Shown here one piece after another: positions 245 through 27,659 of a stretch of 27,659 nucleotides of DNA. Every line of letters begins with the position of its first letter. Position 1 is the first letter of the stretch. Both the position numbers and the translations under genes were made by a program. Origin of the DNA: a virus; the IMG/VR virus record IMGVR_UViG_3300032291_004401, positions 1 through 27,659 of that record. One strand, 5' to 3'. Below the pieces are notes generated by a model that worked only from the letters and a program-made list of their open reading frames with translations, had not been told where the DNA came from and did no database searches.

Positions 245-282
245 AGATTATTACTATAGCCAAACGTCAATAATCTAGGAGG
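245..282 (+). promoter_or_regulatory. Candidate -10 box inside a dyad that ends at the ribosome-binding site
   Basis: AGATTATT (245-252) and AATAATCT (269-276) form a perfect 8-bp inverted repeat with a 16-base loop. The right arm ends directly before the ribosome-binding site AGGAGG (277-282) of the gene starting at 289. A TACTAT -10 candidate occupies 252-257 and predicts a start near 264, downstream of the left arm. Read-through RNA could form the hairpin; RNA started locally could not. No convincing -35 box is seen. Confidence 0.45.
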
Positions 283-288
283 TGTACC

Positions 289-492
289 ATGGCCGGCAAA
301 AAACCAGCTAAAGTTAATTCGTCAGGAAGCGTAAAGCAGGCTGAACAAATTGGTAAGATAATTAAATATATCGGTGCCGCTAAGGGCGTCTTTCACACCT
401 GCCCCACTTGCAATAGTAAAGTTAACAGAGGCCTTGTCTATGAGCACGGCAACATAACTTATTGCACTAGAAATTGCATACCAAAAGCTTAA
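289..492 (+). CDS. Small zinc-ribbon-like protein
   Basis: This 67-residue protein has a basic N terminus and a four-cysteine cluster, C38-x2-C41 and C59-x3-C63, that could hold one structural zinc. The start is set by a strong AGGAGG 6 bases before the ATG. It has no signal peptide or membrane segment. Small zinc ribbons in phages can bind nucleic acid or the transcription machinery, but nothing here fixes a role. The following gene starts 16 bases downstream and has its own promoter-like box. I do not recognise the family. Confidence 0.75.
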   Translation: MAGKKPAKVNSSGSVKQAEQIGKIIKYIGAAKGVFHTCPTCNSKVNRGLVYEHGNITYCTRNCIPKA

Positions 493-514
493 GTGCTACT
501 ATAGCAGTATGCAA
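474..514 (+). promoter_or_regulatory. Leaderless-type promoter with a start-codon-masking dyad
   Basis: An extended -10 box TGC-TACTAT (494-502) lies exactly 6 bases before the ATG at 509, so the mRNA is predicted to begin at or near the start codon. No ribosome-binding site is present. TTGCATAC (474-481) and GTATGCAA (507-514) form a perfect 8-bp inverted repeat whose right arm contains the ATG. A smaller TGCTA/TAGCA hairpin (494-506) nests inside. The left arm lies upstream of the predicted transcript start. Confidence 0.45.
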
Positions 515-3303: not shown

Positions 3304-4029
3304 TTAATACCAAACTGGCTTTGAGCCTTGTGTTATAATTTTTTTGATCTTTGAACCCGGGGCTGCATTTATTGAATAGGTGGTGCATCTGTTGTCCCAA
3401 ACTATTATATCACCAGTACTCCAAGTAGTCGAAAAAACATTTTGCTCATCCTGAAAAAACTCAAGCAAGTAAGCTAAATATTTTTGCCAAACATCATTGT
3501 CTTTACCTATAGTAGAAGGGCCGCTATAAAAAACTGATTCCCTATTTGTCTCTGGATGGATGCGCAATGCCGGGTGCTTATATTCTTGTTGAGACTGTCT
3601 TTGATGTAAGTCTCTTGGGTTTTTAATATTCCAACCAGTAATATTGTGTTTAGTTATAAATTCAACAATTTTTGGATCCAACAAATTTCTTACTTTTTCT
3701 AAATCAACCCAACTAATTAAATTAGATTCCCCTACAGATTCAACAATCTCCATCATACATATATCTGCTACCTTAGTGTCCCAGCACAGATCATTTTGCC
3801 ATCTTGCGTAATAGCCATATTCTCCAGGGCCAGCATTTTGTAGCGGGGCAAAGAAAGAGTAGTCGTAATCCTCGTCAACCAAAATTGAAGATTCACCTGG
3901 AGCAAATGCTTCAATAAGGCTTTCTGTATCTTCAGGACAAAAATCTTTGAATACCAACACTTTATGGTCTAAAAGTAGACAGGGATCGTCAATTATTCCA
4001 TTTTCAATTATTTTACCAAAATTAGACAT
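3304..4029 (-). CDS. TauD/TfdA-like protein with degenerate active site
   Basis: This 241-residue protein matches the TauD/TfdA fold over its length: W-x-x-D then LCWD, a HPALRIHPETNR segment, and WSTGDIIVWDNR near the end. The catalytic residues are changed, however. The HxD iron motif reads Q78-N-D80, the distal His after WDNRCTT is Y218, and the 2-oxoglutarate-binding Arg region holds only Lys (227, 229, 230). As read, it should not bind iron in the usual way and may be a pseudoenzyme, perhaps regulatory or with another ligand. The frame is intact and a promoter-like box precedes it, so it is not an obvious decayed gene. The neighbouring oxygenase is complete. Confidence 0.82.
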   Translation of the reverse strand: MSNFGKIIENGIIDDPCLLLDHKVLVFKDFCPEDTESLIEAFAPGESSILVDEDYDYSFFAPLQNAGPGEYGYYARWQNDLCWDTKVADICMMEIVESVGESNLISWVDLEKVRNLLDPKIVEFITKHNITGWNIKNPRDLHQRQSQQEYKHPALRIHPETNRESVFYSGPSTIGKDNDVWQKYLAYLLEFFQDEQNVFSTTWSTGDIIVWDNRCTTYSINAAPGSKIKKIITQGSKPVWY

Positions 4030-21002: not shown

Positions 21003-21212
21003 TTAAGACGACAAAACCTTTAGTATTAAAAAGAATACTTTGCTCAGATTGTCAGGAGCAATACTAAAAACGTGTTCTTTTTCAAGGGTTTTAATTGTTA
21101 TACAATGTACGTCTACTAAATCTCCATTTGAAGTTATAGAAGCTGTAGGCTTAGATATGGAAATGTCAGTAATAGTTGGCATAAAGCCATCGAACATCCC
21201 GTTATTTTCCAT
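21003..21212 (-). CDS. Small uncharacterised protein
   Basis: This 69-residue protein looks like a small beta-rich fold (PTITDISISKPTASITSNGDLVD...) with a hydrophobic C-terminal helix (VFFLILKVLSS). No known motif is seen. A leaderless-type promoter precedes it and no ribosome-binding site is visible. Because of that promoter it may be the first gene of a transcript running into the oxygenase and sugar genes. Confidence 0.65.
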   Translation of the reverse strand: MENNGMFDGFMPTITDISISKPTASITSNGDLVDVHCITIKTLEKEHVFSIAPDNLSKVFFLILKVLSS

Positions 21213-24967: not shown

Positions 24968-25294
24968 TTACTTATTGCCCTGTTGTGATTCTTTAATTAA
25001 AGAATATCTGTCACCAGTTTCTTTAGAAACAACAGCAAACCCGTACGCAGCTGCATCTTCTATGGCCAACCTAAGGCCTTCTTTATCTTCAAATGAAACG
25101 TTTGGCAATGGTATTGTTACCGCAGCATAGACGTCAATATTCTCAAAGTTGCCAATGTTTATTTTTCTATTTACCCCACAAATAAACACTGGTGATGTCG
25201 TAATCGCCAGATCTGCGGAAACAGAATTCATTACATTGTCTATGGGAGAATCAAATGAGGATGATTCTTGAGCACTTTTATTAATCTTAGGCAT
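24968..25294 (-). CDS. Uncharacterised protein with an NIGNFENIDVYAAV segment
   Basis: This 108-residue protein has a disordered Ser-rich N terminus and a compact C-terminal domain (RKINIGNFENIDVYAAVTIPL, then GLRLAIEDAAAYGFAVV). Proteins with a K-NxGNFE start to the domain are frequent near replication genes in actinophages, without a known role. Its start overlaps the end of the dNMP-kinase-like gene by 8 bases, suggesting co-translation. AGGA lies upstream. Confidence 0.65.
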   Translation of the reverse strand: MPKINKSAQESSSFDSPIDNVMNSVSADLAITTSPVFICGVNRKINIGNFENIDVYAAVTIPLPNVSFEDKEGLRLAIEDAAAYGFAVVSKETGDRYSLIKESQQGNK

Positions 25295-26066
25295 TATTTT
25301 TTATTCCTATTCCGAGGCACTCTAGTGTTGCCGCAACTTGTTGTTCTAAATTCATATTATTAGTATCTATAACAGCAGAAGCTATTTGCTTAACTTCTTC
25401 TGCTTCCATCTCTGAACTGTGCCCAGACTGTTCACTGTTCATTATAGCACCATCTCGTTTCAAAATTCGCTTATCAAGGACTTCTTTATCTGCATCAAAG
25501 CTTATAATAAATCCGTTCGGCTGCTTAAGGATACTCTTGGCTTCGTTTACATAACGCACATCAGACACTATAACGCACATCGGATTGATGTTATCTTCTT
25601 CATGATTCTTTAAATAGTTTCTATATATTTTATTAGCTTTTATTATTGCCCAGTTTGAAAAACAATTTTCATCGTATTCCCTACAGATATCACCAGCTTT
25701 TTGAAGAAATGTTCTAGGCTTGGAGCCCTCTTCCTCTATTGGGGTGTTGTAAATCTGCTTTACCTTTTCAATTAAGATATCATAATGAGGCATGTTCCCT
25801 ATCGATGATCCACCATACACTTCATACAAAACTTCGTGAAGTGAATAAAGTTTTCTTGATTCTTCATTAAAGCCTATTATGTTTTTCTTTACTGATGCCA
25901 TCTCATAAAGTGGAAGAGCGTAGAAAATATGATCCCAATTTATGCCAAACTTTACAGTTTCCATTGAACCTTTTGGGATTATTGATTCTGCTACAGAAGT
26001 TTTTCCACTTCCAGCTTTACCAGACAGGCCAAGTATTATCGGTTGGTTATTAATAAATTTTTTCAT
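25287..26066 (-). CDS. Deoxynucleoside monophosphate kinase-like P-loop protein
   Basis: This 259-residue protein has Walker A G16-K-A-G-S-G-K22-T23 near the N terminus. RTFLQKAGDICREYDENCFSNWAI follows, and then VIVSDVRYVNEAKSI, as in phage dNMP kinases such as T4 gene 1. SGHSSEMEAEE near the C terminus matches the nucleotide-lid region of that group. It probably phosphorylates dNMPs to feed phage DNA synthesis. The start lies in a leaderless-type promoter with a masking dyad, and no ribosome-binding site is visible. Another P-loop kinase activity is possible. Confidence 0.75.
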   Translation of the reverse strand: MKKFINNQPIILGLSGKAGSGKTSVAESIIPKGSMETVKFGINWDHIFYALPLYEMASVKKNIIGFNEESRKLYSLHEVLYEVYGGSSIGNMPHYDILIEKVKQIYNTPIEEEGSKPRTFLQKAGDICREYDENCFSNWAIIKANKIYRNYLKNHEEDNINPMCVIVSDVRYVNEAKSILKQPNGFIISFDADKEVLDKRILKRDGAIMNSEQSGHSSEMEAEEVKQIASAVIDTNNMNLEQQVAATLECLGIGIKNNA

Positions 26067-26095
26067 GCAATAAGTATAGCAGAAAATTATTGCAT
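26064..26095 (-). promoter_or_regulatory. Leaderless-type promoter inside a perfect 9-bp dyad
   Basis: On the minus strand ATGCAATAA (26095-26087) and TTATTGCAT (26073-26065) form a perfect 9-bp inverted repeat with a 13-base loop. TGC-TATACT (26081-26073) is an extended -10 box standing 6 bases before the ATG at 26066. The left arm encodes the last Met-Gln-stop of RNase H and lies upstream of the expected start. The right arm contains the first two bases of the start codon. Read-through RNA would hide the start; local RNA would not. Confidence 0.55.
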
Positions 26096-26515
26096 TTTTT
26101 GATTTCTAATTTCTAATTCATCCAGAAAAGCGTTGGCTAATGCATCGGGTTCCCATACGAAAGATCTTGGGACTTGAATCACCCTAAAATTATACTCTGA
26201 TTTTATTTCCTCGATAGTCATCAACAAGGGTAGCAACAGTCTATTCTTGCATTCCCACTTGCCATTTATTTGATTTGCGACCACAGCTGAATCAGTATAG
26301 ATAATAGGATCGGACAAATCAGCCATAGCAGATATCAATAGTCCAGCTATAACAGCTTCATACTCAGCTTCATTATTTGTTCTTGGGCCAAGGCCTCTGG
26401 AAAATTGTGCTATTTTTTTTCTATTCTTATAGACAACTACGGAACAAGCAGCTTCGCCAGTTTTCTTTTGCCCTTGCCCTCTTGATGCCCCATCGCAAAA
26501 AACTTCAAAGTTCAT
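26087..26515 (-). CDS. Ribonuclease H-like protein
   Basis: The protein has 142 residues and all four acidic active-site residues of RNase HI: D8 in CDGASRGQG, E51 in TNNEAEYEA, D75 in IYTDSAVVANQI and D124 in PDALANAFLDE. It should cut RNA in RNA-DNA hybrids with two metal ions, removing primers or transcripts during phage replication. It lacks an extra hybrid-binding domain. Its ATG overlaps the upstream stop (TAATG), and its end forms part of the dyad before the kinase-like gene. Confidence 0.92.
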   Translation of the reverse strand: MNFEVFCDGASRGQGQKKTGEAACSVVVYKNRKKIAQFSRGLGPRTNNEAEYEAVIAGLLISAMADLSDPIIYTDSAVVANQINGKWECKNRLLLPLLMTIEEIKSEYNFRVIQVPRSFVWEPDALANAFLDELEIRNQKMQ

Positions 26516-26735: not shown

Positions 26736-27251
26736 CTAGTATGTAGTAAAATCACTTTCAAGATAATGACCCTTACTTTCTCTCGATGCAGCAATTTGCA
26801 TAGATTGCACTTTGTCCATCAATTTTCTAGCTGACTCTGAAGATATTCGAGCAGCACTCTCCATTGATTCAGCTAGGCTCATGACAGCTTCGCATGTGAT
26901 TAGGGCTGAGTATTCATCCTCTGCTGCCTCCATGGCTGCTGCTTCTCTCTCCGCCTCATTCTTGCCCACTCTGGAAGACTTGTATTTCTTTTTATATTTA
27001 CCTTCCATTATTTTATAGTTGGCTCGGGCCATGCCAGCAAATCTTGCTGCTCTACCATAAACGTTAGACGTCTTGGCCACAAGTGAAGCCATGTTTTCGA
27101 TGCCCAGGTCAACAGTATCTTCGTCCGGTATCTCTATGAAGTATTTATTATTTTTTGTTACATCAACATAAGAATTAATTACTTCTTGGATTTGTGGTCC
27201 AAGAAAGTCTGAGAGTAGTTGTTGGAGTTTTTCTAAACTCTGATTATTCAT
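26736..27251 (-). CDS. Helix-rich uncharacterised phage protein
   Basis: This 171-residue protein is nearly all helical by composition. An N-terminal LQQLLSDFLGPQIQEVI helix is followed by NVYGRAARFAGMARANYKI, a basic KGKYKKKYK-like stretch and a long Ala/Glu-rich helix to the end. It recalls actinophage proteins near replication or recombination genes that have no settled function. AAGGA lies before the ATG. Its start overlaps the end of the HTH protein gene by 8 bases. Confidence 0.65.
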   Translation of the reverse strand: MNNQSLEKLQQLLSDFLGPQIQEVINSYVDVTKNNKYFIEIPDEDTVDLGIENMASLVAKTSNVYGRAARFAGMARANYKIMEGKYKKKYKSSRVGKNEAEREAAAMEAAEDEYSALITCEAVMSLAESMESAARISSESARKLMDKVQSMQIAASRESKGHYLESDFTTY

Positions 27252-27659
27252 TTTTATCCTTTTTGATTAAACCAAATTGTTTTAATAGTGGTTGCAATTC
27301 TTCATCGGTTTTAATTATTGAAACTATTTTTTCTCTTATTTCTTTTAGATGTTCCCTAACAGTGTTAGGATGTTCATTGATTTTTAAAGATATATCGCTG
27401 GACCTCTTACCATCTACATACCTCCATTTTATCAGCTGCCTCTCCTGTATTGTCAACTTATCGAAAGGAGGAAAATTATTTTCTCCTACCACCCAAGCTT
27501 CATCTATATCTTCTGCAGATAGGATTGATTCCAAGGAATATTCTCTAGGTTCTGCTTTGAATCCTGTTTGAAAATTTTCACTTTCTGGGTCAGTGTCTGC
27601 GTCGTCGTCTATTAGAGGAAATGTTTTTCTTCCTAGCTGATCTATCAAAAATGTATCAA
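27244..27659 (-). CDS. HTH protein like sigma-70 region 4 or LuxR, 5' end cut off
   Basis: The frame is open to the right edge; an internal TTG at 27648 is the only possible start in view, so the N terminus is probably missing. Counted from that TTG, residues 65-108 (KLTIQERQLIKWRYVDGKRSS.ISLKINEHPNTVREHLKEI) have the helix-turn-helix of sigma region 4 and LuxR-type regulators, which also occurs in small phage terminase-like and transcription factors. An acidic N-terminal part precedes it. A phage transcription factor that recognises the TACTAT-type promoters would fit, but this is speculation. Confidence 0.62.
   Translation of the reverse strand, partial: DTFLIDQLGRKTFPLIDDDADTDPESENFQTGFKAEPREYSLESILSAEDIDEAWVVGENNFPPFDKLTIQERQLIKWRYVDGKRSSDISLKINEHPNTVREHLKEIREKIVSIIKTDEELQPLLKQFGLIKKDKNE

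Follow-up and report, generated by a model that had tools for sequence, protein, structure and literature searches.

A probable leaderless, extended -10 gene start flanked by inverted repeats in a phage linked to actinobacteria

The junction between two four-cysteine genes of a phage genome in all likelihood carries, at 494-509 (+), a leaderless gene start of the extended -10 type, whose message would also be translated as a leaderless mRNA; the hairpin that can be drawn around it appears to be mostly incidental. The window, i.e. the whole stretch of DNA analyzed, is 27,659 bases long and represents a complete virus record. The promoter class, its spacing and its conservation come from comparison of this record with others; the transcription start, the sigma factor and leaderless translation are what we infer from them.

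The extended -10 element and its conservation

The upstream gene (289-492, +) encodes a 67-aa, four-cysteine, zinc-ribbon-like protein, is preceded by the Shine-Dalgarno (SD) sequence AGGAGG and terminates in a TAA stop codon at 490-492. It has a leadered promoter with the -10 element ATTACTAT at 250-257 (+), 31 nt 5' of its start. The downstream gene (509-895, +) encodes a 128-aa protein with a HiPIP-like four-cysteine C-terminal domain, and transcription is predicted to start at 509. Immediately 5' of it lies the extended -10 element TGCTACTAT (494-502, +), with TG at 494-495 and TACTAT at 497-502, followed by the six-base spacer AGCAGT (503-508, +) and the ATG at 509. These coordinates, read directly from the sequence, agree with the initial annotation, which had placed an extended -10 six bases before an ATG without an SD; sequence inspection found no SD upstream of 509. 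The 6 nt between the last base of TACTAT and the ATG fit the leaderless pattern of TANNNT placed 6-7 nt before ATG or GTG, and the TGN directly 5' of the hexamer is that of an extended -10.

The junction was found in four distinct versions, namely the window type and those of L139, L007 and L005 (the version in L153 is identical to that of L005). TG-N-TACTAT-A and the 6-nt spacing, including the TGN, are invariant in all four, against a diverged upstream stretch. In L139, L007 and L005 the upstream gene spans the identical -10, whereas 493-508 is noncoding in the window; because the upstream gene stops before this segment, conservation of the -10 in the window is not driven by coding. The ATG at 509 is correctly placed, as the SD-led homologs in L008 and L146 begin at the equivalent methionine, but behind an ordinary leader with an SD. 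The gene thus has a leaderless start in some relatives and an SD-led one in others.

The initial annotation had further read the left arm of the outer inverted repeat (474-481) as a possible -35 box. Its spacing of 17 bases to TACTAT holds, but the proposed role is not supported: TTGCAT matches TTGACA at three of six positions, L005 has ATGCAT instead, and no -35 signal, in the form of a TTGACA-like hexamer 16-18 nt upstream, was found in 23 sites of the leaderless class. We therefore reject a -35 role for this arm, the class as a whole showing no such signal.

In the mechanism that we propose, the extended -10 would direct initiation to position 509, the A of the start codon; a transcript with this start point is therefore leaderless, and it would be translated via the leaderless route common in actinobacteria. 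Lying where the preceding gene has its 3' end, the promoter would let the second gene be transcribed independently of the SD-led message that originates from the 250-257 promoter.

Promoter classes in the phages and in the candidate host lineage

Genes were called in 1.3 Mb of sequence from nine phage records, namely the window and eight relatives; a simple custom script assigned the starts without regard to the -10. Across these records TGNTANNNT occurs exactly 6 nt before 22 starts lacking an SD, where 1.8 would be expected (Poisson P 7e-17), a count that includes orthologs common to related records, and the site at 494-508 is a member of this class. Altogether 55 leaderless sites with distinct proteins, at spacings of 5-7, were listed; further members in the window precede the starts at 4029 and 26066, as well as that at 21212 with a 5-nt spacer. 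Within the class TACTAT is less common as a -10 than TATAAT. The host-lineage genome, a single MAG with a related ferredoxin and hence standing for a candidate host lineage only, shows a comparable peak of TANNNT-to-ATG distances at 6-8 nt (20, 24 and 15 against about 3). The enrichment of the spacing in both the phage records and this genome supports the leaderless promoter originally proposed. The leadered class is separate: where RTTACTAT was found within 62 nt of SD-led starts, it lies 20-40 nt before the start in 43 of 56 cases.

Several observations concern the leadered promoters and possible promoter recognition by the phage. At the promoter of the zinc-ribbon gene (window 245-276) there is a palindrome of the form TTACTAT-N6-10-ATAGTAA, present as AGATTATT/AATAATCT, which is frequent at promoters of zinc-ribbon genes in the relatives (L030, L033, L061, L069, L083, L139 and L141) and shows an apparent compensatory change in L139. 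Leadered sites overall have a slight excess of TTACTAT/ATAGTAA-type repeats (p 0.02). On the opposite strand, 27244-27648 (-) encodes a protein with a domain resembling sigma-70 region 4 (E 2e-05, narrowly missing the Pfam cut-off), which makes this protein a candidate phage promoter-recognition factor.

With regard to the host, positions 1353-2000 of the window are 73.5% identical to the Actinomycetia phage DSL-LC01, a genome from a lake metagenome with a predicted actinobacterial host (PMC10611076). The gene that comes after 509-895 encodes a 4Fe-4S ferredoxin (911-1156), whose best identity, 78%, is to Acidimicrobiia and Ilumatobacteraceae genomes; these matches suggest a host in the Acidimicrobiia/Ilumatobacteraceae lineage.

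A precedent for the arrangement is presented by the leaderless genes of actinobacteria (Zheng et al., 2011, PMC3160421; Cortes et al., 2013, PMC3898074). In actinobacterial genomes leaderless genes, which average 19% of the total, are recognizable by a TANNNT some 12 bp 5' of the start (PMC3160421). The phage site resembles them in that a T of TACTAT lies at a distance of 12 bp from the ATG, an SD is lacking, the class is without a -35 signal and the start codon occupies the expected +1. It differs in belonging to a phage gene and in that the TG-extended -10, present in just 7% of TANNNT promoters of M. tuberculosis (PMC3898074), is prominent in these phages. With extended -10 (TGN) promoters the site shares the TG one base 5' of the hexamer and the lack of a -35 signal; unlike them, it has zero leader. 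On these comparisons of sequence we regard the leaderless promoter as very probably genuine, its arrangement being already known in actinobacteria and ordinary for such phages.

The inverted repeats and competing readings of the junction

The nested hairpin sequences described at the outset are indeed present. The outer arms, TTGCATAC (474-481, +), which encodes Asn(part)-Cys-Ile-Pro(part) in the upstream gene product, and GTATGCAA (507-514, +), which overlaps the start codon, are 8 bp long, 25 nt apart and 100% complementary by direct reading and repeat search. The inner hairpin TGCTA-CTA-TAGCA (494-506, +) pairs 5-bp arms at 494-498 and 502-506 across the loop CTA. Folding of the 61-base region is unexceptional (z = -0.72; 50 of 200 shuffles equally good). 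The window has 35 8-bp inverted repeats of comparable kind against 23.7 in shuffles, and five nested ones against 2.1 (single-shuffle maximum 6). With both proteins kept constant and their synonymous codons resampled, a junction stem of at least 8 bp arose with P = 0.018, a value for this one junction, uncorrected for how many junctions the window contains. A search of Rfam returned nothing above the gathering score.

Conservation does not bear out an RNA switch as a functional element, as the initial annotation had suggested. The inner hairpin is unconserved: in the alignment of relatives its pairing is lost in three of the four versions, through G.G or G.A breaks in L139, L007 and L005, while the -10 is kept; the covariation of the outer stem lies within the shuffle range. 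Moreover, with a start at 509 the left arm is missing from the leaderless mRNA, and a switch is therefore possible only in read-through RNA.

Start-codon-masking RNA hairpins occur in read-through transcripts, and at the phage junction, too, a stem over the AUG can be drawn. The outer stem might hide the AUG at 509 in read-through RNA from 250, with translation only from the leaderless transcript. We consider this unlikely, even though the outer helix is drawable in all four versions with 96.9% of cells paired, one pair changing from C-G in the window type to G-C in L139 and L007 and G-U in L005, and though the stem dominates the ensemble folds of the window and L139, where the AUG is predicted to be 98-100% paired. 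TGCATA is also invariant while the remainder of the upstream gene has diverged, and other zinc-ribbon homologs mostly have different codons at this position. Against it, five of the eight pairs are unvarying and overlap coding sequence, being located in the Cys-Ile codons and around the ATG, and the covariation, from just four junction versions, is equaled by 105 of 500 shuffles. Unlike in the masking hairpins, the pairing is not part of every predicted fold (probability 0 in L007 and about 0.2 in L005), there is no SD to hide, and the left arm is absent from the leaderless transcript; most other leaderless sites also lack such a stem. Its extension to a promoter-choice switch, wherein one set of bases keeps the gene silent on the polycistronic mRNA but lets it be expressed from the leaderless one, is a shade less probable; it would be a neat coupling of promoter choice with translation, but the evidence is not in its favor.

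Two further readings dispense with RNA masking. Translation of the 509 gene might proceed on the upstream mRNA, through coupling or reinitiation, TACTAT being inactive as a promoter: the neighboring genes are just 16 nt apart in the window and 4 nt in L139, L007 and L005, without an SD. With so short a distance, coupling might in these three relatives yield the protein also alongside an active leaderless promoter. This is improbable, as TG-N-TACTAT with its exact 6-nt spacing is kept even where noncoding, and the 6-nt peak is strong throughout the class. Least credible is a DNA operator, with a dimeric regulator on arms at about -35 and +1. The arms do flank the promoter, 33 bp apart from center to center, and a second leaderless promoter, that of gene 25287-26066 (-), has an 8-9 bp flanking repeat too (ATGCAATAA/TTATTGCAT, 26066-26099, -). 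This latter repeat is, however, missing in the G001 ortholog despite an identical -10, and an operator model built on it was rejected; likewise, flanking repeats at the 55 leaderless sites are not longer than permuted pairs (p 0.16), with those of at least 8 bp confined to two sites, both within this window.

The nested hairpin around the leaderless promoter is therefore most likely incidental. Its inner part probably arises from the near-palindromic TGCTACTATAGCA, and its outer stem where the Cys-Ile codons (TGCATA) happen to meet T-ATG-C. Elsewhere in the window, a 9-bp repeat (TATAATCCC/GGGATTATA, 1283-1311) separates the -10 of a holin-like gene from its SD/start at 1311, and could cover the SD of that gene.

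The gene product and the two promoter classes

In profile searches with 14 relatives, the C-terminal four-cysteine region of the 509-895 product recovered weak matches to the HiPIP-type PioC (E 0.0019) and to HiPIPs (E 0.04-0.06), and the product is probably an iron-sulfur protein; its predicted structure (mean pLDDT 40) was too low in confidence for use. In DSL-LC01 the homologous stretch forms the end of a protein annotated as a capsid maturation protease. L015 and L153, compared with the window and L141, keep the promoter of the 509 gene together with its first 13-21 codons and have the C-terminal part exchanged for another four-cysteine domain.

The comparison indicates that in phages of uncultured aquatic actinobacteria the leaderless arrangement of the host forms a definite promoter class, beside the leadered TTACTAT class. 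Recognition of these two classes would allow better calling of start codons and promoters in such phages.
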